From an uncultured Litoreibacter sp. (GTDB lineage: Bacteria; Pseudomonadota; Alphaproteobacteria; Rhodobacterales; Rhodobacteraceae), in the NCBI GenBank assembly GCA_947501685.1, contig CANMWQ010000004.1:62001-126000 (forward strand): 64,000 nt of DNA, written 5' to 3'. A program made the translations under genes and the position numbers. Positions within the stretch are counted from its first letter, which is position 1. Each line of letters starts with the position of its first letter. Shown in pieces: positions 8,869 to 22,898 of this stretch. The notes under the pieces were generated by a model. It was not told the DNA's origin. It did not search any database and saw only the letters and a program-made list of their open reading frames with translations.

Positions 8869-9996
8869 TTACCCGGCACCCCGCAACCGGTCGCGATGCG
8901 TCGCCAGCCAGAGCGCACTCATTACCAACGGGCCGTTCTCCGCCTCGCCCGAGGCCAGCGCCTCCTGCAACGCCTCAAATGACACCAGCATGGAGCGGAT
9001 ATCCTCCGCCTCGCCTTCCACGCCGCCCACGCCCTCAATCCCGTCCGGCAGATCGGCCACCGCCACAAAAGAGGTCATATATTCCGAACAACACCCCGAG
9101 GAGGCGTAATACCGCGCGACCAGCTCCATCTCGCCGAGGCGCAGCCCGGTCTCCTCCAGCGCCTCGCGCCGTGCGGTTTGTTCAGGGGTTTCGCCGGGGT
9201 CCTGCCGCCCTGCAATGGCCTCCAGCGCCCAAGGGTTGGCGTCGCCGCGCAGATAGGCCCCGGCGCGGAACTGCTCGATCAGCAGCACCCGGTCGCGCTT
9301 CGGGTCATAAGGCAGCACGGTCACCGCATCCGACATCATGAACACGGCGCGTTCCGAGGGCTGTGGCATCACCCCGTCAAAACGCCTCGGGGCCACGTCG
9401 ATCTCTTCCACGGTGAAGAAATGCGAATACGGCCTGCGATGGCCGCTGACCACAACATCCGAGCGGTCATGCGCGCGGCGCAGCCGCGTCGGCGTCACCC
9501 GTGCGCGGGCGTTTACTCTCTGCTGGGCACGGATGCGAATAACCGGCATCCGGGCCGCGATCAAAGCAGGCTCCACGGAGCCAAACCCCTCCATGATCTC
9601 CACCGCCGCCTCGCGCATCAAAGGCCCGTGCTCGGCCTGCCACGCGTCCAAAGACCAATCCTCACCGCCCTGCTGTTCCAGCGCGCTTGGTGGTCGGTAG
9701 ACATCCGCAGGCCCGACATCCAGCTGCGCCGGGACCCGCGTGTACCCGTAAGGCGCCTCGTAATAATCCAGCCGCGCCAGCTGCTCGGCGCTCAGGTCGC
9801 GTAAGACCAGACCTTGCGCGTTTTGCCCCTCGGCGGCAACCAGCAGCGGGTAGGATTGCCCCTTGGCCCGCGCCACCCGCGCGCCGGGCAACACCGCGGC
9901 AGAGACGTCAGGTGCCGCGCCCAAAACAACCTCAAGCAGGTTGAGGTCGCGCAATGTACCAAACAGAAAAACTGCCGGGGTTGGCCTCAATGCCAC
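8869..9996 (-). CDS. trgB: TrgB-like fusion: gamma-glutamylcyclotransferase-like domain plus Nudix hydrolase
   Basis: A two-domain protein of 375 residues. Residues about 8-140 resemble the GGCT/AIG2 fold (VFLFGTLRDLNLLEVVLG at the N-terminus, LDYYEAPYGYTRV later). Residues about 190-370 form an ADP-ribose pyrophosphatase-type Nudix domain whose box (residues 263-285: G-x5-E-x7-REALEETGL) is intact. The start is GTG 9996, with GGAG 6 nt upstream, overlapping the end of trgA by 10 bp. Position beside trgA and cysK matches the R. sphaeroides trgAB tellurite locus. The true substrate is unknown; ADP-ribose is inferred from the Nudix subtype. Confidence 0.85.
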   Translation of the reverse strand: MALRPTPAVFLFGTLRDLNLLEVVLGAAPDVSAAVLPGARVARAKGQSYPLLVAAEGQNAQGLVLRDLSAEQLARLDYYEAPYGYTRVPAQLDVGPADVYRPPSALEQQGGEDWSLDAWQAEHGPLMREAAVEIMEGFGSVEPALIAARMPVIRIRAQQRVNARARVTPTRLRRAHDRSDVVVSGHRRPYSHFFTVEEIDVAPRRFDGVMPQPSERAVFMMSDAVTVLPYDPKRDRVLLIEQFRAGAYLRGDANPWALEAIAGRQDPGETPEQTARREALEETGLRLGEMELVARYYASSGCCSEYMTSFVAVADLPDGIEGVGGVEGEAEDIRSMLVSFEALQEALASGEAENGPLVMSALWLATHRDRLRGAG

Positions 9997-10501: not shown

Positions 10502-11725
10502 CTACTCAGCCCCGCTGGCAGGCCGTGTCATGGTGACCTGCGTTACATCGCAGTTTCCACTCCAGAAGGTTCCGGCGCAAGAGGTGAGATAAAAATTCCA
10601 CATGCGTTGAAAACGTGCATCAAACCCCAAAGCGGCGACGTCGTCCCAGCGCTCGTTAAAGGTCTCGTGCCAGCGCCGCAACGTGTCCGAATAGCTCTGC
10701 CCGAACTCGATGGAACCCTTCAGGTGCAGCCCCGCACGCGCGATCTCTTGGCGCAGCACGGTCGGGCTGGGCAGCATGCCGCCCGGAAAGATATATTTCT
10801 GGATGAAGTCCACGCCGCGCTTGTAAACCTCCCAGCGCTTGTCCTGCACGGTGATGATCTGCAACGTGGCATGTTTGCCGGGCTTGAGGCGCTCGCGCAC
10901 CGTGTCAAAATAGACCGGCCAGTATTTCTCGCCCACCGCCTCGAACATCTCGATGGAGGCGATGCCGTCATACATCCCCTCCTCGTCGCGGTAATCCTGC
11001 ATCTTGATCTCAACCATGTCGCTCAGACCCAGCCGCGCCATCCGCGCCACGGCATAATCGTGCTGCTCCTGGCTGATCGTCAGGCCGGTGACTTTCAGGC
11101 CCCGCTCTTTGGCGGCATATTCCGCAAACCCGCCCCAGCCGCAGCCGATCTCCAGCACATGGTCGCCCGGTACCACGCCCATCTGATCCACCATGGAGGC
11201 GTATTTGTTCTCTTGTGCCTTCTCGAGGCTCTCTTGCCCGGTCTCGAACTTGGCCGAGCTATAGGTCATCGTGTCGTCAAGCCATAGCGCGTAGAAGTCG
11301 TTGCCCAGATCATAATGGTAGCTGATATTTTTCTTGGCCTGACGCTTGGAATTAGACTGCATCCAGAACCGCAGCTTTTCATAGGCCCGCACAAGCGCCA
11401 TGCCCGGATAGCCGTCATAGACATCGTCATTATCGGCATGCACCAGATCCATGAAGGCCTGCAGGTCGGGCGTGGACCACCACCCGTCCAGATAGGCGTC
11501 GCAAAAGCCCAGATCGCCCTCGCGGATCAGCCGCGCGAACAGGTCGTCATGATGCACGGTGAACTCGGCCACCGGGCCGGGCTTGGCCCCTTCGGCCCGA
11601 AACACGCGCCCGTCTTCCAGCTTCATATCCAGCCGGCCAAACTGGACCTTCTGCGCCGTTTGAAACGCCTGCGCAAAGTAGCGTGGCAAGTTGTCTTGGC
11701 CTTGCGTCGACGTCAATATGGTCAT
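10502..11725 (-). CDS. cfa: Cyclopropane-fatty-acyl-phospholipid synthase
   Basis: A SAM-dependent methyltransferase (407 residues) that adds a methylene bridge to unsaturated acyl chains in membrane phospholipids. The N-terminal accessory domain includes EGDLGFCDAYLDGWWSTPDL. The Rossmann SAM site is HVLEIGCGWGGFAEYAA (about 185-200), followed by GLTISQEQHDYA and the family motif IASIEMFEAVGEKYWPVYF. The C-terminal part has FIQKYIFPGGMLPS and RRWHETFNERW. Length agrees with the family (380-420). It sits between trgA and the photolyase, so a stress-response grouping is plausible but not proven. Confidence 0.95.
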   Translation of the reverse strand: MTILTSTQGQDNLPRYFAQAFQTAQKVQFGRLDMKLEDGRVFRAEGAKPGPVAEFTVHHDDLFARLIREGDLGFCDAYLDGWWSTPDLQAFMDLVHADNDDVYDGYPGMALVRAYEKLRFWMQSNSKRQAKKNISYHYDLGNDFYALWLDDTMTYSSAKFETGQESLEKAQENKYASMVDQMGVVPGDHVLEIGCGWGGFAEYAAKERGLKVTGLTISQEQHDYAVARMARLGLSDMVEIKMQDYRDEEGMYDGIASIEMFEAVGEKYWPVYFDTVRERLKPGKHATLQIITVQDKRWEVYKRGVDFIQKYIFPGGMLPSPTVLRQEIARAGLHLKGSIEFGQSYSDTLRRWHETFNERWDDVAALGFDARFQRMWNFYLTSCAGTFWSGNCDVTQVTMTRPASGAE

Positions 11726-11822
11726 CGCGGCACCCCCCAGAGATTGTTAACTATTCTATGCAGATAGCCCGGAACCGCTCAAGTCCATTCGAGCCACCCT
11801 TTCATCGCAACACGTTAGGCCG

Positions 11823-13241
11823 TTATTGCGCGCGCTGCTGGTAGGCCTCCAAGGCCCGCGCACGTCCCTCGGCCAGTTCCACCACCGGGGAGGGGTAATC
11901 ATCCTCCGCGCTCATCCCCCACGCCTGCGGGATGGCGTCAAAATACAGCTCTGCCTCATCGCCATGCACGCCGTAAGGCTCCGCCAGATATTGCCGTCGG
12001 TAAGAGGCCCCCTTGTCAAACTTCTCCGCCTGCGTGTCAGGGTTGAACACCCTGAAATACGGCGCCGCATCCGGCCCCGACCCCGCAACCCATTGCCACC
12101 CCATCGCATTGGAGGCCGGGTCCCAGTCGATCAGGCAATCCTCAAACCACGCAAGCCCCACCTTCCAATGGGTCATCAGATGTTTGGTGAGATAAGAGCC
12201 CACGATCATCCGGCCCCGGTTATGCATCGTGCCCGTCACATACATCTCGCGCATCGCCGCATCGACCAGCTCAATCCCAGTGCGCCCTTGTTTCCACCGC
12301 GTGGCCTCGGCGGCGCGCGCGTCAGCTTTCCACGGAAAACTGTCCCATTCAGGCCGCCAATTGTCGCTGACAATGCACGGCGTGTGAAACGCCAGATGGT
12401 AGGCAAACTCGCGCCAGACCACTTCCTTCAGGAAATGCTCCGCGCCCTTCTTGCCATCCTCCAAAGCCCGCCAGCCCGCATGCCAACAGGTCAACGGGGA
12501 GATCTCGCCATAGGTCAGGTTCTCCGACAGGCGCGAGGTGGCGTCTTTCGCCATGAAATCCCGCGCCTCCTTATAGGCGTCCACCTTCTCCGCGATAAAC
12601 GCGTCCAGACGTGCCCGCGCGGCAACCTCGCCCACGCAAACATAACGCGCCACAATATCCGCCCCGCGCTGCATCGCGGCCCCCATTTGCCAATCATCCA
12701 ACGCAGCACTCGCAGGCCAGCTCTCGGGCACCTCCAGCGCGCCCACCGCAGGCAAACACGCCTCCAGCTGTCGGTCCCGTACCGATTTCCACATCGGCGT
12801 GTAGACCTTGTAAAAATCGCCCGTCTTGGTCTCCACCGTCCACGGCTCAAACAGCAGATGCCCGGTGAAGCTCTCCGCCTCCAGCCCGTCTTCCTTCAGC
12901 CCCGCCTTGACGCCCTTGTCACGCGCTATGGCCTCGGGGTCGTAGGCACGCGACCAATACACAGCCCCTGCCCCGGTCTCCTTGATCAGCGCGCGCAAAC
13001 ACGCCAGCGCGTCGCCGCGCCGCAGGATCAGCTTGGAGCCGATGGCCTCCAAGCTCTGCGCAAACGTCGCGACCCCTAGCCCCAGCCGCCATTTCGGGGC
13101 CGCGCCATGCGTCTCGACGATCTCGTCATGGATAAATACCGGGATGACAGGCCGGCCGCTCTTGGCGGCGGCACTCAGGGCGGGATGGTCGGCCAGCCGC
13201 AAATCGCGGCGGAACCAGACCAGAATAGGTGCATTGCTCAT
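11823..13241 (-). CDS. phrB: Deoxyribodipyrimidine photolyase
   Basis: A blue-light DNA repair flavoprotein of 472 residues that splits UV-induced pyrimidine dimers. The N-terminal antenna domain starts ILVWFRRDLRLADHPAL. The FAD-binding C-terminal half contains TSRLSENLTYGEISP, EVVWREFAYHLAFHTP, GIELVDAAMREMYVTGTMHNRGRMIVGSYLTKHLMTHW and the diagnostic DWDPASNAMGWQWVAGSGPDAAPYFRVFNPDTQ. Length matches class I CPD photolyases (450-480). Genes this close to cyclobutane-dimer repair in Rhodobacterales are often near cfa; here they are 97 bp apart on the same strand. Confidence 0.95.
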   Translation of the reverse strand: MSNAPILVWFRRDLRLADHPALSAAAKSGRPVIPVFIHDEIVETHGAAPKWRLGLGVATFAQSLEAIGSKLILRRGDALACLRALIKETGAGAVYWSRAYDPEAIARDKGVKAGLKEDGLEAESFTGHLLFEPWTVETKTGDFYKVYTPMWKSVRDRQLEACLPAVGALEVPESWPASAALDDWQMGAAMQRGADIVARYVCVGEVAARARLDAFIAEKVDAYKEARDFMAKDATSRLSENLTYGEISPLTCWHAGWRALEDGKKGAEHFLKEVVWREFAYHLAFHTPCIVSDNWRPEWDSFPWKADARAAEATRWKQGRTGIELVDAAMREMYVTGTMHNRGRMIVGSYLTKHLMTHWKVGLAWFEDCLIDWDPASNAMGWQWVAGSGPDAAPYFRVFNPDTQAEKFDKGASYRRQYLAEPYGVHGDEAELYFDAIPQAWGMSAEDDYPSPVVELAEGRARALEAYQQRAQ

Positions 13242-13342: not shown

Positions 13343-15019
13343 TTACTCAGCAGGCGTCGCCGACATGTTGTCGGTGGTGGTCGGAATGCCCGCAGCCTCG
13401 CGGCGGCCATCGTTCCAGATCGCCTTGATCAGGGCCACGCACATCAGCGCCATCACAATGGAGAACGGCAACGCGCCAATAACCATCGCGGTCTGAATGG
13501 CCCCGGTCCCGCCCGAGATCAGCAACCCGCCAACCACAAGCGCCAGCGCCACACCCCAGAACAGGATATGCGGCCGCGCCTTCGGCCCCTCATCCCCCGC
13601 TGCGTTGATCGTGTTCACAATCAGCACCGCCGAGTCAGCCGACGTGACAAGGAAGGTCATCAGCAAAACCACGATCATCACCGCCATGCCCCAAGCCAAC
13701 GCCTCCGAGATCGGCGACAGCATGAACTCGGTCATCGCAAAGATCTTGTCGCCATTCGCCGCCTCCAGGATCACCCCGTTTGCGGCACCGTTCAGCTCAA
13801 GGTCCACGGCTGTGCCACCGGCCCAAGCGAACCAGACAAAACACATCAGCGACGGCACGATCATCGCGCCCAGCACGAATTCGCGGATGGTCCGCCCGCG
13901 CGAGATACGCGCAAGGAACAGCCCCACAAAAGGGGCAAACGCGATCCACCAGGCCCAATAGAAGACCGGCCACCAGCCCTGCCACTGCGTCAGCAGGAAC
14001 GCTTCCGAGCCCTCGACACCGTCCGATGAATAGACGTTGAAGCTGAGCCATGGCAGCGCCACGAGATAGTCGAAAATCCCCACGAAGAACGCCATCGCCC
14101 CGAACCATGTGGCCCCGAAGATGATGAAAAAGCCCAGCAAGGTGATCGACAGCACCATGTTGATATTGGAGAGCCACTTGATCCCCTTGCCCACGCCCGA
14201 CAGCGCCGACAGGGTCGAGGCCCCCATGATCACGATCAGCGCCACGACGATCCCCATCGTGGTCGCGGAGCCATCCTCTTGCACCAGCCCGGCAATGCCG
14301 ATCCGGTTCAACCCGGCCACAAACTGTTCCACCCCGAAGCCCAGCGTCTGCGCCACACCCAGAATGGTGGCCACAACCGCCACGATATCAATCAAATGCC
14401 CCAGATTGCCCGACAATGCCTTGCCAAAGAGCGGCGTCAGCGACGAACGAATGGTCAGCGGCAGGCCCCTTCGGTAGCTAAAGAACGCCAGCGACAGGCC
14501 CGCGACGGCATAACACGCCCAAGCGCCCAAACCCCAATGCAGGTAGGACCAGATATAGGCCTCGCGCACATTGTTGGCGTCCAGCGCCGTGGTGACCCCT
14601 TGGATGACTGCTGGGTTGTTTTTGAAATGCGCAATCGGCTCGGCCACGGCCCAGGTCAACATACCCACGCCGATCCCGGCCCCAAACATCATCGAGAACC
14701 ACGAGAAATTGGAGAATTCCGGCACCTCGCCGTCCTGTCCCAAATTCAACCGCCCACCTGCGGGCCAAAGTGCGAGCCCCAGACAGACGATGACAAACGC
14801 TGCGACAACCCAAATATACCACGCGGCAAACTGTGCCAGAATGGCAGAGTTCCAGTTGCCCAGAATGGTCCCGGCCTCACTCGGCCAAACGATACACCAC
14901 ACAACCAACATCGAGATGATGATCTTGCTGATCACCGCCACATTCACACTGAATCCGCGATAAAACCCGCTATCGGCGGTCTTGATCGGCAAATCCGTTA
15001 AAGGAGGTTTGACTGACAT
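13343..15019 (-). CDS. BCCT family betaine/choline/DMSP-type transporter
   Basis: A 558-residue sodium- or proton-coupled transporter for quaternary ammonium or tertiary sulfonium osmolytes, in the inner membrane with 12 predicted helices. Family motifs are FGAGIGVGMLTWAVAEPIAHF near 95-115, YIWSYLHWGLGAWACYAVAGLSLAF (the conserved Trp-rich substrate helix), and the FLARISRGRTIREF loop. The C-terminal tail is short, without the long regulatory extension seen in BetP. It is 370 bp downstream of acuI on the same strand and likely has its own promoter. Context beside dmdA-acuI suggests DMSP as a substrate, but choline or glycine betaine are equally possible from sequence. Confidence 0.9.
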   Translation of the reverse strand: MSVKPPLTDLPIKTADSGFYRGFSVNVAVISKIIISMLVVWCIVWPSEAGTILGNWNSAILAQFAAWYIWVVAAFVIVCLGLALWPAGGRLNLGQDGEVPEFSNFSWFSMMFGAGIGVGMLTWAVAEPIAHFKNNPAVIQGVTTALDANNVREAYIWSYLHWGLGAWACYAVAGLSLAFFSYRRGLPLTIRSSLTPLFGKALSGNLGHLIDIVAVVATILGVAQTLGFGVEQFVAGLNRIGIAGLVQEDGSATTMGIVVALIVIMGASTLSALSGVGKGIKWLSNINMVLSITLLGFFIIFGATWFGAMAFFVGIFDYLVALPWLSFNVYSSDGVEGSEAFLLTQWQGWWPVFYWAWWIAFAPFVGLFLARISRGRTIREFVLGAMIVPSLMCFVWFAWAGGTAVDLELNGAANGVILEAANGDKIFAMTEFMLSPISEALAWGMAVMIVVLLMTFLVTSADSAVLIVNTINAAGDEGPKARPHILFWGVALALVVGGLLISGGTGAIQTAMVIGALPFSIVMALMCVALIKAIWNDGRREAAGIPTTTDNMSATPAE

Positions 15020-15389: not shown

Positions 15390-16379
15390 TCAAGCGTTCA
15401 CATCAACCACGACGCGCCCCTTGACCTGACCTTTCAAAATGTCACGCCCCAGCCCCGGCAGGTCGCTTAGCACTGCGGGTTGGACCATGCTCTCCAGCTT
15501 GGCCATCGGCAGGTCTTTCGCGATCCGCTCCCAGGCACGCAGGCGGTTGTCATAGGGCTGCATCACGCTATCGATGCCCAGCAGGTTCACGCCGCGCAAC
15601 AAGAACGGGATCACGGTCGCAGGCAAGCCTGCGCCCCCCGCCAGCCCTACGGCAGACACGGACGCCCCGTATTTCATCTGCCCCAGCACCCGCGCCAGCA
15701 TATCGCCGCCCACGGCGTCCACGCATCCGGCCCATGTCTCGGCCTCCAAGGGCCGCTTCACAGTCTCGTTCAGCTCCTCGCGGGCCACGATCTGGCTGGC
15801 CCCCAGCGAGGTCAGATACTCCGCTGTCTCCGGCCGCCCGGTGACGCCTGCCACTTCATGGCCCAAAGCCGCCAGCAGCGCTACGGCCACAGAGCCCACG
15901 CCGCCTGCCGCACCTGTCACCAGCACCGGCCCGTCGCCGGGTGTCAGCCCGTGATCTTCCAGCGCCATCACCGCCAGCATGGAGGTGAACCCGGCGGTCC
16001 CCACTGCCATTGCTTGGCGTGTGTCCAGACCGCCGGGCAGCGGCACCAGCCAATCGGCCTTCACGCGGGCTTTCTGGGCATAGCCGCCCCAATGCGCCTC
16101 GCCCACGCGCCAGCCAGTCAGCACCACCTTGTCGCCGGGTTTGTAGCGGTCATCCGAGGAGGTCTCGACGGTGCCTGCAAAATCAACCCCCGGCACATGC
16201 GGGTAATTGCGCACCAACCCGCCGCCGGGTCCAACGCACAAGCCGTCCTTGTAGTTCACGGTCGAATATTCGACCGCCACCGTGACCTCGCCGTCTGGCA
16301 GCTGGTCTTCGGAAATCTGCGTGACGGAGGCGCTCGTTTTGCCCTCTTCATCCTTTGTCACAAGCAATGCGTTGAACAT
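15390..16379 (-). CDS. acuI: Acryloyl-CoA reductase AcuI (MDR family)
   Basis: An NADPH-dependent medium-chain reductase of 329 residues without the zinc-binding residues of alcohol dehydrogenases, matching the AcuI/YhdH family. It starts FNALLVTKDEEGK and shows YSTVNYKDGLCVG, HVPGVDFAGTVE and the nucleotide-binding VLVTGAAGGVGSVAVALLAALG. AcuI turns toxic acryloyl-CoA, formed from DMSP or acrylate, into propionyl-CoA. It begins 15 bp after dmdA on the same strand, the dmdA-acuI pairing known from Ruegeria pomeroyi. Confidence 0.94.
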   Translation of the reverse strand: MFNALLVTKDEEGKTSASVTQISEDQLPDGEVTVAVEYSTVNYKDGLCVGPGGGLVRNYPHVPGVDFAGTVETSSDDRYKPGDKVVLTGWRVGEAHWGGYAQKARVKADWLVPLPGGLDTRQAMAVGTAGFTSMLAVMALEDHGLTPGDGPVLVTGAAGGVGSVAVALLAALGHEVAGVTGRPETAEYLTSLGASQIVAREELNETVKRPLEAETWAGCVDAVGGDMLARVLGQMKYGASVSAVGLAGGAGLPATVIPFLLRGVNLLGIDSVMQPYDNRLRAWERIAKDLPMAKLESMVQPAVLSDLPGLGRDILKGQVKGRVVVDVNA

Positions 16380-16394
16380 GTCGTCTCTCCTCGT

Positions 16395-17495
16395 TTAAAT
16401 CCAAAAATTGTCTTGCACCACGGCGCGGCGCGGCCCGTCCTGGGTCTCCACCTGAATTTCGGTGCCCGCGTCCCAATGGGTGATCCGCACCATACCAATG
16501 GCCACGTTTGTCTTGAAATCCGGCGACCACGCGGCAGAGGTCACTTGCCCCACCACCTTACCCTTCGCCGTCACCGGCCACAGCCGGTCGCAAGGGGGGA
16601 TGTCGCCGTCAATGCTGATCGCGCGCACCTGTTTCACCGGCCCTTCCTTGGCCACGCGCAAGAGCGCGTCGCGCCCCACGCAGCCAATCGCCGTCTGGGT
16701 GGAGCAAAACTTGCCCAAGCCGCATTCATGCGGCGTGTTGTCCCGCGTCATGTCATTGCCATAGCTCAGCAAGCCGCCCTCGACCCGCTCGATGAGGTTT
16801 GGGCAGCCCGCATGCACGTCCAAATCCTTGCCCGCCTCCATCAACGCGTTCCACAGCGGCATGCCGCGCTCATGCCCGTCCACGTAAATCTCGAACCCGC
16901 CCTGCTTGGAATAGCCCGACCGCGCCACCAAGAAGGAATGCCCGTCCACGTCGAAATAACCATAGCGGAAAAAGCGCAGCTCGGTCACCGCGTCGCCAAA
17001 TATTCTGGCGGCCAGCGCGTCGGCCTTCGGCCCCTGAATGGCCAGCGGGGAGACGTCCGGCTCCTCCACAATCACGTCGAGATAAAGCGCATGCGCCAGC
17101 CCTTTGACCCAGAGCAGCAAATCGCTATCCGCAATCGACAGCCAATACCGATCATCCGACAGCATCAAGGCCACCGGGTCGTTCAACATGCCGCCCGTGC
17201 CGTCCACCAATGGCACGTAATAGCACATCCCCGGCAGCATCCCCCTCAGATCGCGCGGCGTCAGCATCTGCATCAGGCGGCCTGCGTCTGGCCCGCGCAG
17301 CTCCACCTGCCGCTCTACTGCGACATCCCACACCTGCACCGCTGATTTGAGATGGTGGTAATCCTCCTCAACCGAGCGGAACACCGTCGGCAAAAGCATC
17401 CGGTTGTAAACGGTATATCCTTTGACCCCGGCGGCTTCGACGCCGTCAGAGAAAGGGGTGCGCCGCACGCGGCGTGAAGGTGCAATCGTGGCCAT
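16395..17495 (-). CDS. dmdA: Dimethylsulfoniopropionate demethylase DmdA
   Basis: A glycine-cleavage T-protein-like (GcvT fold) enzyme of 366 residues that moves a methyl group from DMSP to tetrahydrofolate, giving methylmercaptopropionate. The sequence follows the Roseobacter DmdA pattern closely: APSRRVRRTPFSDGVEAAGVKGYTVYNRMLLPTVFRSVEEDY, MLTPRDLRGMLPGMCYYVPLVDGTGGMLNDPVA, IADSDLLLWVKG, CPNLIERVEGGLLSYGNDMTRDNTPHECGL. I choose ATG 17495 because it gives the family N-terminus; a frame-extending upstream ATG would overlap the DinB gene. It lies 7 bp after DinB and 15 bp before acuI. Confidence 0.96.
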   Translation of the reverse strand: MATIAPSRRVRRTPFSDGVEAAGVKGYTVYNRMLLPTVFRSVEEDYHHLKSAVQVWDVAVERQVELRGPDAGRLMQMLTPRDLRGMLPGMCYYVPLVDGTGGMLNDPVALMLSDDRYWLSIADSDLLLWVKGLAHALYLDVIVEEPDVSPLAIQGPKADALAARIFGDAVTELRFFRYGYFDVDGHSFLVARSGYSKQGGFEIYVDGHERGMPLWNALMEAGKDLDVHAGCPNLIERVEGGLLSYGNDMTRDNTPHECGLGKFCSTQTAIGCVGRDALLRVAKEGPVKQVRAISIDGDIPPCDRLWPVTAKGKVVGQVTSAAWSPDFKTNVAIGMVRITHWDAGTEIQVETQDGPRRAVVQDNFWI

Positions 17496-17502
17496 GGCTT
17501 GG

Positions 17503-18003
17503 TTAATCCGGCATGAAAGGCAGATCGGTATCATCCGGGCGTTGCCCAGCTGCGGTCAGCATGGCATGCATTTGACCGCGATGATGCGTCTGGTGGTTGA
17601 AGAAATGAACGACGCAAAGCGCCGTCGGTTTGATCATCGTCTTGTTTGCAGCGCCCGAATGCCAGACCAGCGGCCCGACCAAATCCACCTGCCGCAGCTT
17701 GCCCGCCCACCGCTCAATCCGCTGATCGGTGCGCAGCCGGTCATCCAGCCACAGCTGCGTGTCGTCATGCAGACCCACGCTGTCAGGGATCCCCGTGGAG
17801 GGCCCATGCCCACCGTCAAAGCGGCTCATCCACAGCTGATCACCCCATAAAAGATGGTTCGCCGTCTTCCAAATCGAGCCGAAAAACGCCTTGCGGTCCT
17901 GCCTCAAAGCGGTGTCGTCCAGCGCCTTGATGCAGGTCGACAAGCTTCTGTTCTGCCACGCATTATAGCGCGCCATGGTCTGGCAATACTCGACCGTCAC
18001 CAT
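17503..18003 (-). CDS. DinB family protein
   Basis: A 166-residue member of the DinB/DUF664 four-helix bundle superfamily, which includes metal-dependent thiol transferases and isomerases. The likely metal-ligand histidines are in WKTANHLLWGDQLW (about 48-61) and in HFFNHQTHHRGQMHAML (about 132-148); the HxxHRGQ pattern is characteristic. It lies 3 bp after DUF1326 and 7 bp before dmdA, so it is surely co-transcribed with dmdA. Some superfamily members use a low-molecular-weight thiol, which would suit sulfur metabolism here, but that is inference. Confidence 0.85.
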   Translation of the reverse strand: MVTVEYCQTMARYNAWQNRSLSTCIKALDDTALRQDRKAFFGSIWKTANHLLWGDQLWMSRFDGGHGPSTGIPDSVGLHDDTQLWLDDRLRTDQRIERWAGKLRQVDLVGPLVWHSGAANKTMIKPTALCVVHFFNHQTHHRGQMHAMLTAAGQRPDDTDLPFMPD

Positions 18004-18006
18004 GGC

Positions 18007-18705
18007 TTAGGGACCGGACCATTCAATCGGGCAAATCTCGGCCGACTTGCCGCCGAAATCCCAAACCCGGCCATAGTCGCGGATCCGCGAGCGCGTGCCC
18101 ACGGCGGCAATGATATCGGGCCCCATCCAGTATTTCGAGTTGCTCACCATCACCGGATGCTCATCCGATTTGCCCGCGATCATCTCGATCTCGCCCTGCA
18201 GCTTGCGGCCAATATTGATCGAGCGTTTCTTGCCCTCGCGCACAATCTCCACCGGCGCGCGCTCCGCGCCAATGATCTCGGAGACCAGCATGGTAAACAG
18301 CCCCGTCGTGCCGCCAGCGGCCCCTGAGAAAATCTTCAAAATGCCGTTATAGGCCTTCTGCGTCGCGCGCTCGTCAACGTAGGCCGCGACCTTCCAGTCG
18401 CCCTCGCCCATCCGGCCCGGAATATCGACCAGCAGGCCAATATTGAGCCCGCTGAGATCCTCACCCTCGAAATGCCCCTCATCAATCGCGATGGCCATCC
18501 AGGCATGGCAATGCCCCTCAGTGGGAGGATGCGCGCCCAGCGACACCACGCAGGGGCAGAACACGGTGCAGGAGCAGTTCAAAAACAGCTCTCCCTTGAT
18601 TTCCCAATTTGTGGGCTCCTTGCGCCGACGCCGCGGGTTCATCCGCGCGTCGATCTTTTGCATGACCTGCAAGCGGTCCGATGGTTTCGTCTCTTTCTTG
18701 GCCAT
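18007..18705 (-). CDS. DUF1326 domain protein with cysteine-rich metal-type motif
   Basis: A 232-residue cytoplasmic protein of unknown function, recognised as DUF1326. The N-terminal part has a CxCx3CxC cluster (Cys44, 46, 50, 52 in NCSCTVFCPC) and a nearby HCH (65-67), which looks like a metal or cluster site. The rest is a compact fold with GLLVDIPGRMGEGDWKVAAYVDERATQKA. A GGGAGG Shine-Dalgarno precedes the ATG. It is 13 bp downstream of a DUF2182 gene; these two families are often neighbours, so they probably act together. Its chemistry is unknown. Confidence 0.85.
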   Translation of the reverse strand: MAKKETKPSDRLQVMQKIDARMNPRRRRKEPTNWEIKGELFLNCSCTVFCPCVVSLGAHPPTEGHCHAWMAIAIDEGHFEGEDLSGLNIGLLVDIPGRMGEGDWKVAAYVDERATQKAYNGILKIFSGAAGGTTGLFTMLVSEIIGAERAPVEIVREGKKRSINIGRKLQGEIEMIAGKSDEHPVMVSNSKYWMGPDIIAAVGTRSRIRDYGRVWDFGGKSAEICPIEWSGP

Positions 18706-18718
18706 GATTAAGCCTCCC

Positions 18719-19483
18719 TTACACGATCACGCCGTAAACGGCGCATCCAAGCCCGGCAAGGATCAGCACGACCCCCATCGGTTTTGTCACAACATGCCCG
18801 ATCTGCGGCAGCTTTTCGATCACCATAAACAGCGTCGCCAGCCCCATCCACAACAGGCTCATCACCCCGCCCACAAATCCAAGCGCCATAAAGCCCCAGC
18901 AGCAGCCCACGCAAAACGCGCCCAAACCCAGCCCCATGCGCAACCCGCCGGTAAAGCCGGTCTTCCAATGGCCCAGAAAATACATCCCCGGCGCGTGGCA
19001 CACGCCGTGGCAGACCTCCTTGGCGCGGGTGAACTGAAACAGCCCCACAATAATGAACAACGCGCCCGCAAACCACAGCGAGTTCGCGATGCCGAGATCA
19101 TTGATCAGGTTCGATGCCATCAGCGCAATCTGCGCCACAGTGATCACGGCGGCAAAGCCCACCCAGACCACAAAATACCCCAACAAAACGCCCAACCAGC
19201 CGCCGCGCGTGCCATTGGCACTGAGCATCAGGTCTTCATAGCTGCGCAGCGTCGGCACCAGCGTCGGCAACATCATCGCCGCCATCATAATGGCCCACAT
19301 CGGAAACAGCGCCCCAAAGGAGGTCATCTGCATCATGGGCATATCGCCCATCGCCATCATCTCCATGGGCCGCCCGATCCAGTCCACGCCCATCATCCGC
19401 GCCATCATGAACATCCAGGCCCAGGCCAGCAAAATAGCCGCAAAGAAGGACAGCCACAAAACGGATCTGGTGATGGCAGGCAT
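18719..19483 (-). CDS. DUF2182 predicted metal-binding membrane protein
   Basis: A 254-residue integral membrane protein with about seven helices. It is methionine-rich near the N-terminus (RPMEMMAMGDMPMMQM, about 39-53), with possible metal ligands in CHGVCH (158-163) and CVGCC (191-195). This matches DUF2182, described as a predicted metal-binding membrane family. I place the start at ATG 19483, with GGGAG 6 nt upstream. It is first in the DUF2182-DUF1326-DinB-dmdA-acuI run and divergent from the GntR gene across the palindrome at 19525-19547. Met and Cys enrichment suggests copper or another soft metal; that is inference. Confidence 0.85.
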   Translation of the reverse strand: MPAITRSVLWLSFFAAILLAWAWMFMMARMMGVDWIGRPMEMMAMGDMPMMQMTSFGALFPMWAIMMAAMMLPTLVPTLRSYEDLMLSANGTRGGWLGVLLGYFVVWVGFAAVITVAQIALMASNLINDLGIANSLWFAGALFIIVGLFQFTRAKEVCHGVCHAPGMYFLGHWKTGFTGGLRMGLGLGAFCVGCCWGFMALGFVGGVMSLLWMGLATLFMVIEKLPQIGHVVTKPMGVVLILAGLGCAVYGVIV

Positions 19484-19524
19484 GGGGGCTCCCGACTCAA
19501 ACGCTTGCAAATTAAATGTCAGAC

Positions 19525-19547
19525 TTTTAATTGTCATACAATTAAAA
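19525..19547. promoter_or_regulatory. Perfect palindromic operator for a GntR/FCD regulator
   Basis: Ten-base arms TTTTAATTGT and ACAATTAAAA flank CAT. The core TTGTCATACAA fits the TNGTNNNACNA pattern common to FadR-subfamily (FCD) regulators. It is 42 bp before the DUF2182 start and 16 bp before the GntR start, in an AT-rich 79-bp divergent region, so one site could control both directions. Confidence 0.85.
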
Positions 19548-19562
19548 ATAAGTGCGGACCTC

Positions 19563-20294
19563 ATGAAGATTGATCCCAACTCCTCCAAAGACCTCTCCGC
19601 GCAAATCGCGCAGGCCATCAAGGAGGCCATCATCGCGGGCCAGCTTCCCGTCGACGAGCGCCTGCCGTCAGAGGCCGAGCTGTCGGAGCAATTCGACGTC
19701 TCCCGCCCCACCGTGCGCGAGGCGCTCAAACGCCTTGCCGCCCAAAGCCTGATCCGCACCCAGCGTGGGGCCACGGGCGGCGCTTTCGTCAACCGGCTCA
19801 GCTTTGAAGACGCCTACGCGCAGCAAATCACCACCTCCACGCTGCTTTTGTCGATGAACGCCGTCAGTTTCGAGACCGCCTGCGAGGCCCGCTACGCGCT
19901 GGAACGCGCCTGCGCGCAGCTCTCCTCACAACGCCGCGAGGCCGATCATCTGGCCACGATGCGCGCCGAAATTCACCGCCAATCTCAACCGGGCCTCTCC
20001 GACGAGGCCTTCTGCGCCTCCGACGTGGCCTTCCACCGCGCATTGGTCGATGGTGCTGGCAACCCGGTCCTGAGCTACCAGCTCGCAGGCGCGGTGGAGG
20101 CGATGCAGCCCTCAATGAATATGATCACCTTCTCCGCCCGCTCCCGGAGCGAAATCATCGCGCTCCACACCCGCATCGCCGACGCGATTGAGGCCCACGC
20201 CCCCGACAAGGCCGACGCCGCTCTGGCCGAGCTGCAAACCTACACCGTCAAACTCGCCAACGACGTCATCGCCGCCCGTGCCACCAAACCCTAA
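19563..20294 (+). CDS. GntR family regulator, FadR/FCD subfamily
   Basis: A 243-residue transcription factor. The winged helix-turn-helix spans about residues 5-75 (VDERLPSEAELSEQFDVSRPTVREALKRLAAQSLIRTQRGATGGAFV), and an all-helical FCD ligand domain follows (about 95-230), with DVAFHRALVDGAGNPVLSY carrying the usual Asp/His metal or ligand contacts. It is divergent from the dmdA operon and close to a perfect FCD-type palindrome, so autoregulation and control of that operon are likely. A GntR regulator (DmdR) sits beside dmdA in Ruegeria pomeroyi; this may be its functional counterpart. Confidence 0.9.
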   Translation: MKIDPNSSKDLSAQIAQAIKEAIIAGQLPVDERLPSEAELSEQFDVSRPTVREALKRLAAQSLIRTQRGATGGAFVNRLSFEDAYAQQITTSTLLLSMNAVSFETACEARYALERACAQLSSQRREADHLATMRAEIHRQSQPGLSDEAFCASDVAFHRALVDGAGNPVLSYQLAGAVEAMQPSMNMITFSARSRSEIIALHTRIADAIEAHAPDKADAALAELQTYTVKLANDVIAARATKP

Positions 20295-22088: not shown

Positions 22089-22427
22089 ATTTCTATACTC
22101 CTAAAGAAAAATAAGTAAGCGATCATATAGGCATAGCGCCAATCAGCGGATAAGCAGCGCCACGCCAAGCCCCCATTGAAAGTGGCAAACCAGCACCGGA
22201 TTAATGCGCCTATCCTCAACATTCCCGAGGCGAATGAAGGGATTGTTAACGGATCCGCCGAAATATGCGGCGCGCGCCCCTCAGGACACCAAAAAGGAAG
22301 GAGTCCCAAAGCGCCTCCCAATTTAGTGATCGCCAATTCGCGAACGTGATTGGCGCATGTCAGACAAATTGGACAGTATAAGTGTAAACAACACATGTCA
22401 GTCGCGGAGAACAACACGGAGAGCCCC
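22089..22427. other. Intergenic region without a recognisable gene
   Basis: This 339-bp stretch separates two divergent genes and must hold both promoters. It is less GC-rich than the neighbourhood. A minus-strand open frame of 114 codons crosses it, but its residue composition (Cys- and Trp-rich, no domain) and lack of a Shine-Dalgarno argue against a gene. No repeats or hairpins stood out. Confidence 0.5.
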
Positions 22428-22898
22428 ATGCAACAGGTCCAAATGCTATCCTATGTGTCAGAATTAAACTGTGCGCCAAGTAACATTGCCAAAGCCGTGC
22501 ACCAGATCCAGCACCGCTCTGAAGCATATTGCAACGATCTTGGAATGAGCGGCATCACGCTGTTGCGCGGCAGCATCCTGTTCCAGATCATCGAAGGCGC
22601 GCCCGATGTGGTCAAAACGCACCTCAAACGCCTTCGGGCCGATGACACGCATGGCCCGGTCAATGTTTTGATCAACGAACCCAGCGAGATACGCCATTTC
22701 GAGATCGGGTCCATGACCTATTTCCACGACAGTTTGCAGGAGTGGGATCTGCTCTCCACCTTTCAGCAAATCGGCGAATATCTGGGCCATGGGCTGGGCT
22801 ATAGCCCGGCGGGGATGGTGCAATGCGCGTGGCGCATGGTAAGCGACCTGACCCTCTTCCAAATGCCGCTCCAAGCCGCACAGGCACAACACGCCTGA
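22428..22898 (+). CDS. BLUF-like sensor domain protein
   Basis: A 156-residue protein resembling the flavin-binding BLUF blue-light domain. The first strand has LSYVSE with the Tyr of the photocycle pair, and RGSILFQIIEGAPDVV carries the Gln (the FxQxxEG motif). The LRADDTHGPVNVLI segment and RHFEIGSMTYF also align with the family. The flavin-contacting Asn region (usually NxxxxITG) is altered (CNDLGMSGITLL), and the semi-conserved Trp before the Met is absent. I choose ATG 22428 because an ACGGAGA Shine-Dalgarno precedes it. No output domain is fused, so it is a short BLUF with a C-terminal extension. Confidence 0.65.
   Translation: MQQVQMLSYVSELNCAPSNIAKAVHQIQHRSEAYCNDLGMSGITLLRGSILFQIIEGAPDVVKTHLKRLRADDTHGPVNVLINEPSEIRHFEIGSMTYFHDSLQEWDLLSTFQQIGEYLGHGLGYSPAGMVQCAWRMVSDLTLFQMPLQAAQAQHA

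Follow-up and report, generated by a model that had tools for sequence, protein, structure and literature searches.

Among the sulfur fluxes of the sea, demethylation of dimethylsulfoniopropionate (DMSP) is a major one, and its genetics has in large part been worked out in Ruegeria pomeroyi. The subject of this analysis is a five-gene operon of an uncultured Litoreibacter sp., in which dmdA and acuI, encoding DMSP demethylase and acrylyl-CoA reductase, are preceded by the genes of a PpoB2 (DUF2182) membrane protein, a DUF1326 protein and a DinB-family protein. The operon lies in a stretch of 64,000 nucleotides (contig CANMWQ010000004.1, positions 62,001 to 126,000), which is called the window below. 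The PpoB2-DUF1326 pair stands upstream of dmdA in most of the related genomes that carry DmdA, and it stands beside genes of CoA-thioester chemistry where dmdA is missing. The five-gene operon itself is firm, and its gene content and order, their conservation, the operator and the occurrence of the pair independently of dmdA are shown; the metal role is what we infer. We suggest tentatively, and with somewhat less than even confidence, that the pair handles Cu(I) or another soft metal in an acrylate- or DMSP-responsive operon under a GntR/FCD regulator.

In R. pomeroyi DSS-3, dmdA is followed by acuI (SPO1913-SPO1914), as it is in the window. Expression of both genes was reported to rise about 14-fold with 5 mM DMSP and about 12-fold with 5 mM acrylate, with responses to either compound in reporter fusions as well (Todd et al. 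2012, PMC3338564). The adjacency of dmdA and acuI was already known, being given for 24 of 26 Roseobacters with DmdA (PMC3338564). In Marinomonas mediterranea, a member of the PpoB2 family, placed in COG5486, takes part in copper transfer to tyrosinase (PMC2855505). It is encoded in the PpoB1-PpoB2 tyrosinase operon and has given its name to the Pfam family PF09948, to which the window protein also belongs; its partner is tyrosinase, whereas the partners in the window are DUF1326 and enzymes of acyl-CoA and DMSP metabolism. The mtoX-SCO1-mauG operon is DMSP-linked like the window operon, and its copper chaperone gene adjoins that of the client, MtoX, an SBP56 protein and copper enzyme; unlike the window operon, it has a chaperone of a different family (SCO1/SenC), an IclR regulator and a separate locus (PMC5739008). 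None of mtoX, SCO1/SenC and mauG was detected by profile scans among the five genes of the window operon.

On plasmid pMaD9 (CP010864.1) of Marinovum algicola DG 898, the PpoB2 and DUF1326 genes (MALG_05029 and MALG_05028) carry the labels 'Transmembrane protein involved in DMSP breakdown' and 'protein involved in DMSP breakdown', which are annotation only. Unlike in the window, an acyl-CoA synthetase gene separates DUF1326 from dmdA there, and downstream of dmdA an MDR gene is followed by one of the SBP56 family. That dmdA and acuI form a core was known before; the conserved upstream extension of this core by the pair has been noticed by at least one annotator. No paper on the PpoB2-DUF1326 pair in a DMSP setting was found in the open literature searched. 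In PMC5395565, which belongs to the context of acrylate, acuI and DMSP, copper has another sense.

A preliminary description of the locus, made from the sequence alone, gave five minus-strand genes, and these were found as open reading frames with gaps of 13, 3, 7 and 15 bp. In the order of the operon they are:

18719..19483, minus strand: PpoB2 (DUF2182), first gene of the operon (PF09948, 197.8 bits, cut-off 28.7)
18007..18705, minus strand: DUF1326 protein (PF07040, 178.4 bits, cut-off 25)
17503..18003, minus strand: DinB-family protein, optional member of the operon (PF05163, 81.3 bits)
16395..17495, minus strand: dmdA, DMSP demethylase (NF009133 equivalog, 661.7 bits, cut-off 410)
15390..16379, minus strand: acuI, acrylyl-CoA reductase (TIGR02823, 449.9 bits, cut-off 297.25)

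The first three had been called uncharacterised, which no longer fully holds for the DUF2182 gene, because Pfam now names this family PpoB2, copper chaperone. Judged by the curated equivalog model, the window dmdA encodes a true DmdA. Every GcvT model scores under its own cut-off, and the match to the relative in PDB 3tfh has an E-value of 3e-106. R. pomeroyi is represented here by genome G535, whose AcuI (stretch L365) is 100% identical over 330 residues to PDB 5gxf, which we take to be AcuI from R. pomeroyi. Furthermore, a 20-nt primer for R. pomeroyi DSS-3 (PMC5739008) matches exactly one of five same-genus genomes, G535. The window AcuI is 86.7% identical to the L365 protein over 330 residues, matches PDB 5gxf with 626.9 bits, and scores 430.1 bits against the stricter model NF051456, slightly below its cut-off of 440.

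The conservation of this arrangement was followed in 295 genomes of the same family as the window genome. DmdA above the curated cut-off is present in 125 of them, DUF1326 in at least 151 and PpoB2 in 155. Besides the window, 134 DmdA loci above this cut-off were collected, 15 kb each where the contig permitted. In 98 of these loci both PpoB2 and DUF1326 are encoded upstream of dmdA, on its strand and no more than 3.5 kb away; AcuI follows downstream in 96, a divergent GntR gene is present in 85, and 88 loci combine PpoB2, DUF1326 and AcuI. By genome, with the window counted, the pair adjoins dmdA in 99 of the 125 DmdA genomes. The arrangement is widespread and goes beyond chance. The earlier suggestion of an accessory module is borne out, and the module is a conserved part of the operon that holds dmdA and acuI. 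DinB is the less constant member: of the 98 PpoB2-bearing loci, 52 have it no further than 3.5 kb from dmdA. The named loci, the best 80 of at least 561 DUF1326 relatives and therefore close relatives only, have median gaps of 4 bp between PpoB2 and DUF1326, 20 bp between DUF1326 and DinB, 1 bp between DinB and dmdA and 81 bp between dmdA and acuI, the start codons in these and in the dmdA-less loci being guessed from homology. Among these 80 the closest four are Litoreibacter, 90-94% identical in DUF1326. In the genome of the window a single PpoB2 and a single DUF1326 were found, both at the operon.

The pair also occurs away from DmdA. From the matches listed, 46 such DUF1326 loci were collected, which are not all that exist, and 31 of them are of type A, a class defined in this analysis by a DUF1326 score of more than 200 bits to that of the window. 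In every one of the 31 a PpoB2 gene lies no more than 100 nt away. acuI follows directly, with at most DinB between, in 22 of the 31 and is divergent in two. A crotonyl-CoA carboxylase/reductase gene (ccr) adjoins the pair in three (L213, L220, L228); two were scanned and score 554 and 550 bits against TIGR01751, and the third is 78% identical to the first. The pair is accompanied by an acyl-CoA synthetase gene (NF006020) in L221, by a cysteine-desulfurase-like gene in L239 and by DinB and a BCCT transporter gene in L201; in L230, where acuI is not found nearby, the stretch stops at the contig edge. In six loci (L085, L089, L107, L126, L128, L134) an acyl-CoA synthetase gene akin to the one in L128 (NF006020) separates DUF1326 from dmdA. 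In other families the order is PpoB2-DUF1326-acyl-CoA synthetase (f37, two genomes; L353, L354) or PpoB2-DUF1326-dmdA-acyl-CoA synthetase (f77, one genome; L352), and DUF1326 relatives of about 300 bits are also present in genomes of family f155. As acuI, ccr or an acyl-CoA synthetase gene adjoins the pair with no dmdA in the collected stretch, the shared theme of the type A loci is CoA-thioester chemistry, mostly acryloyl-CoA reduction, and not demethylation. The tie to DMSP demethylation as such, drawn in the preliminary description, is thus not upheld. Its alternative, that dmdA simply joined an older pair, is closer to the facts where dmdA is concerned, but 'simply joined' says too little, because the pair so often stays with acyl-CoA genes.

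The remaining 15 of the 46 loci are of type B. As in the window, both families are encoded side by side in 14 of them; unlike the window, the order is mostly reversed (DUF1326-PpoB2), and the best copy scores 48-117 bits against the window DUF1326. Their neighbours, judged by eye from lists of open reading frames, look varied, and none of the 15 has an acuI match exceeding 30 bits.

Upstream of the operon there are two operator-like sites and a divergent regulator gene:

19563..20294, plus strand: divergent GntR/FCD transcriptional regulator (PF00392 and PF07729, scored on a longer open reading frame)
19532..19540, minus strand: operator site 1, TGTATGACA, one mismatch from TGTCNGACA
19517..19525, minus strand: operator site 2, AGTCTGACA, 15 bp from site 1 and one mismatch from TGTCNGACA

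An operator had been described before the first gene as a single palindrome; it is present, but consists of two sites resembling TGTCNGACA at a spacing of 15 bp. Among loci L061-L240 there are 93 GntR-divergent intergenic regions, and TGTCNGACA with at most one mismatch occurs in all 93, against 3.9 expected by shuffling, a descriptive count and not an independent test, since the consensus was derived from the same regions. Two or more sites are present in 79, the commonest spacing being 15 bp (57 site pairs). The first gene behind the region is PpoB2 in 86 cases, dmdA in four, acuI in two and DinB in one. Exact operator copies within 150 nt upstream of dmdA number 0 in the 98 PpoB2-bearing loci, mismatched sites not being counted. 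A promoter consensus scan of the window operon gave three matches, against 1.4 ± 1.1 in shuffled sequence, and the one promoter-like match on the coding strand is inside DUF1326 (18138-18110). A terminator scan gave four, against 4.7 ± 2.4, with two overlapping in DinB and one in dmdA. Within the limits of such scans there is thus no clear separate regulated start or stop before dmdA; a promoter or terminator between DinB and dmdA is what the preliminary description had named as speaking against its proposal.

R. pomeroyi G535 has the same operator pair with the same 15-bp spacing and a GntR protein 77.5% identical to that of the window. There dmdA comes first, directly after the operator, whereas the window operon has three genes ahead of it. 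Since both operator sites and a close homologue of the GntR protein are shared with R. pomeroyi, PpoB2, DUF1326 and DinB in the window are probably also under acrylate or DMSP control.

The window PpoB2 is a polytopic membrane protein, and its AlphaFold2 model is mostly helical (mean pLDDT 86.1). It carries the motifs CHGVCH (residues 158-163) and CVGCC (residues 191-195). M62, M66, M70, M71 and C195 are invariant in 19 of 19 aligned sequences of types A and B, and C158, C162, C191 and C194 are almost invariant in the same alignment. Ctr copper transporters feature methionines in MxxxM spacing. DUF1326 has a lone hydrophobic stretch (residues 40-58) and is probably soluble; its CxCx3CxC motif spans residues 44-52, and C44, C46, C50, C52 and C66 are invariant in all 18 aligned sequences. 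H50, H137, H140 and H141 of the DinB protein are invariant in a 15-sequence alignment. Such invariant histidines are typical of the DinB fold, and a thiol-transferase role is known from DinB/YfiT relatives. The PpoB2 and DUF1326 motifs agree with the preliminary description, whereas that of DinB (H137...H141-RGQ) reads HxxxHRGQ and not HxxHRGQ. Sequence searches of the PDB gave one irrelevant match for PpoB2 (E 0.99), no match for DUF1326 and no match for DinB. The soft-metal handling that had been proposed for the upstream genes may be taken as the best guess for PpoB2-DUF1326, with Cu(I) as a candidate, in view of the PpoB2 family and the invariant cysteines and methionines.

By combining these observations it is possible to outline how the operon might work. 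The GntR/FCD regulator would read the two TGTCNGACA-type sites ahead of PpoB2, and the whole operon would respond to acrylate or DMSP. Its usual parts within this family of bacteria would be the PpoB2-DUF1326 pair and a gene of CoA-thioester chemistry, mostly acuI, with dmdA and DinB as optional inserts between them. The membrane-bound PpoB2 would bind or pass Cu(I) or another soft metal by way of its Met, Cys and His sites. On what is probably the cytosolic side, DUF1326 would hold the metal on its CxCx3CPC...C cluster; the identity of the metal and the direction of its movement are suppositions of this scheme. The pair would be made when acrylate and acryloyl-CoA rise, possibly because these electrophiles use up the thiols that buffer soft metals. 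AcuI would clear acryloyl-CoA, and DinB may be a helper of the thiol-transferase type. Thiols buffer Cu(I). Acrylyl-CoA is an electrophile that attacks sulfhydryl groups (PMC4029986), and these two properties together lead to the proposal that metal handling could be needed under electrophile stress.

Several observations weigh against this proposal of a metal-handling pair in an acrylate-responsive operon. DUF1326 was not found in the genome of R. pomeroyi G535, and neither PpoB2 nor DUF1326 is present in its 4.1-kb dmdA stretch, to which the PpoB2 search was limited. DUF1326 is therefore not needed for the use of DMSP or acrylate as such. G532 of the same genus also lacks DUF1326, and G031, G533 and G534 have a copy beside dmdA. 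No pair was seen in the collected stretches of 20 of the 125 DmdA genomes, genomes whose DUF1326 locus was not collected being scored as without it; one of the 20, G146, has DUF1326 and PpoB2 on another contig. No acuI lies near the pair in seven of the 31 dmdA-less type A loci. As to induction, methylmercaptopropionate is no inducer in R. pomeroyi, and another study saw no marked induction at 80 uM DMSP, both as given in PMC3338564. The proteins themselves offer further difficulties. No copper enzyme was recognised among the five operon genes by Pfam and NCBIfam profiles, the PpoB2 model has no fold match in the PDB at E<=0.001, and the AlphaFold2 model of DUF1326, made with 38 close relatives, is unusably poor (pLDDT 51.4). 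The ligand residues of PpoB2 are common to type B proteins in other contexts (five aligned), and the first cysteines of the DUF1326 cluster are also present in type B N-termini. These residues are thus no argument for a role with acrylate, and metal binding, if real, would be a property of the PpoB2 family that is used here.

The covariation of the two proteins, too, has to be read with care. PpoB2 and DUF1326 distances correlate with r 0.71 over 88 loci, against 0.15-0.23 for their correlation with DmdA and AcuI, owing to joint switching between two subtypes. With limits set in this analysis at 330 and 240 bits, 129 loci divide into 55 with both proteins long, 62 with both short, 12 with a long DUF1326 and a short PpoB2, and none of the reverse kind. 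Within the subtypes r falls to 0.32 and 0.38, no better than for other pairs, which also tells against the proposal; as proof of joint function, co-evolution is weakened, the correlation being ordinary there. The joint switching speaks for the exchange of both genes together at one position, and not for tight co-evolution. Similarly, dmdA seems to have been replaced in place. At 15 of the 88 loci (L153, L155, L157, L163, L165-L169, L171, L177, L180, L182, L183, L186) a divergent DmdA type, at a distance of 0.28-0.45 from the nearest main-group DmdA, occupies the slot between DUF1326 and acuI, and DUF1326 (0.07-0.33) and AcuI (0.09-0.30) of the same loci stay nearer to the main group.

The pair might instead have no tie to acrylate or DMSP at all, being an older unit that came to lie behind a useful promoter and has since been kept by descent and synteny. 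A photolyase gene is found in 54, and a cyclopropane-fatty-acid-synthase-like (CFA) gene in 48, of the 81 DmdA loci that carry PpoB2 and extend 6 kb or more to either side, which means that part of the gene order is inherited chromosome structure and is a further point against the metal proposal. Hitch-hiking also agrees with the use of DMSP by R. pomeroyi without DUF1326 and with counts that were made without control for the organism tree. The link persists, however, without the wider synteny in view: among loci with at least 5.5 kb downstream and neither photolyase nor CFA gene within reach, acuI is still present in 20 of 27 with dmdA and eight of nine without it, and six of the seven acuI-less loci with dmdA have an acyl-CoA synthetase gene. 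The link also recurs in other families (L352-L354), the PpoB2-DUF1326 unit is carried on two plasmids with different flanks, and two subtypes of the pair fill the same spot. Hitch-hiking is judged unlikely.

It is also conceivable that the thiols of DUF1326 sense or scavenge electrophiles of the acryloyl-CoA type, or hold a structural Zn, with PpoB2 as an anchor and DinB as a thiol transferase. This would suit the acryloyl-CoA or other acyl-CoA genes that are frequently found beside the pair, the five invariant cysteines of DUF1326 and the invariant histidines of DinB. It accounts less well for the PpoB2 sites, which are shared with type B pairs among varied-looking neighbours, for the PpoB2 family member with a copper role, and for the absence of DinB from 46 of the 98 PpoB2-bearing DmdA loci. 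We regard this explanation, too, as improbable.

A third possibility is that PpoB2-DUF1326 deliver copper to an SBP56-family methanethiol oxidase that disposes of the methanethiol derived from demethylation. MtoX is such a copper enzyme, and the genome of the window has an SBP56 homologue on another contig (C3). Three of the 134 DmdA stretches and six of the 80 named ones contain an SBP56 gene, in most cases accompanied by the gene of a small membrane protein, and SBP56 also follows acuI on pMaD9. MtoX operons, however, have their own SCO1/SenC gene (PMC5739008). At the threshold for a homologue, E<=1e-80, 61 of 130 pair-bearing genomes have no SBP56 match; SBP56 is hardly commoner in DmdA genomes with the pair (62 of 105) than in those without it (10 of 20), and is found in seven of 25 pair genomes without DmdA. 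L149 has SBP56 after dmdA and no PpoB2, and none of the 46 dmdA-less DUF1326 stretches contains SBP56. Maturation of methanethiol oxidase, possible in some strains, is thus set aside as the general role, since so many pair-bearing genomes have no SBP56 at this threshold, and is judged quite unlikely; the tie to methanethiol as such, suggested in the preliminary description, is not upheld.

The proposal that the pair handles a soft metal can be taken a step further, with more doubt. PpoB2-DUF1326 would then be a dedicated soft-metal module of acryloyl-CoA stress, the first physiological setting for DUF1326, and a tie of copper type within the DMSP catabolism of most roseobacters; we think this wider claim rather doubtful. 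Such a module may have been overlooked because R. pomeroyi lacks DUF1326 and has neither gene beside its dmdA. If most relatives do have the pair under an acrylate-responsive operator, R. pomeroyi would be atypical as a model strain, insertions in the first genes of the operon would have polar effects on dmdA-acuI, and the handling of acrylate and DMSP may depend in part on trace-metal status. DUF1326, and PpoB2 beyond its tyrosinase setting, would gain a physiological context that can be tested.

Downstream of the operon there follows a transporter gene:

13343..15019, minus strand: BCCT-family transporter, 370 bp downstream of acuI, possibly a separate unit (PF02028, 486.7 bits)

A BCCT homologue lies inside the collected stretch of 29 of the 81 PpoB2-bearing DmdA loci. 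After the operon and the BCCT gene come a photolyase gene and a CFA gene (window 10502-13241), and in 111 DmdA stretches searched these were found in 56 and 54, respectively. Further along, a single open reading frame (window 8869-9996) fuses gamma-glutamyl cyclotransferase (GGACT) and NUDIX domains, beside the gene of a PLP-dependent (PALP) enzyme. A BLUF blue-light sensor gene (window 22395-22898) is placed a few genes past the regulator and has no homologue in the same 111 stretches. Elsewhere in the genome (G000:C3:138498-138866) there is a match to a DMSP-lyase family (PF16867, 83.9 bits), so that both DMSP pathways are probably present.

Five DmdA loci without the pair (L129, L140, L159, L162, L164) have an acyl-CoA synthetase gene, possibly a DmdB-type ligase, directly upstream. 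An SBP56-family gene is in or beside the dmdA operon, usually in the other arm behind GntR, in L073, L086, L325, L327, L331, L332, L341, L348 and L149. It is adjoined by the gene of a membrane protein of about 220 residues (YHGLNPGMGWP) in eight of these nine loci and also on L378 (11457-13602), and the window's genome has both genes together on another contig (L350). The SBP56 matches form two groups, at about 570 and about 690 bits. Of 264 stretches searched, 101 have a cysteine-desulfurase-like gene (a TIGR01976 relative) no more than a few kb from the operon, in most cases on the downstream side of acuI; examples are L062 (4586-5800) and L083 (9915-11129).

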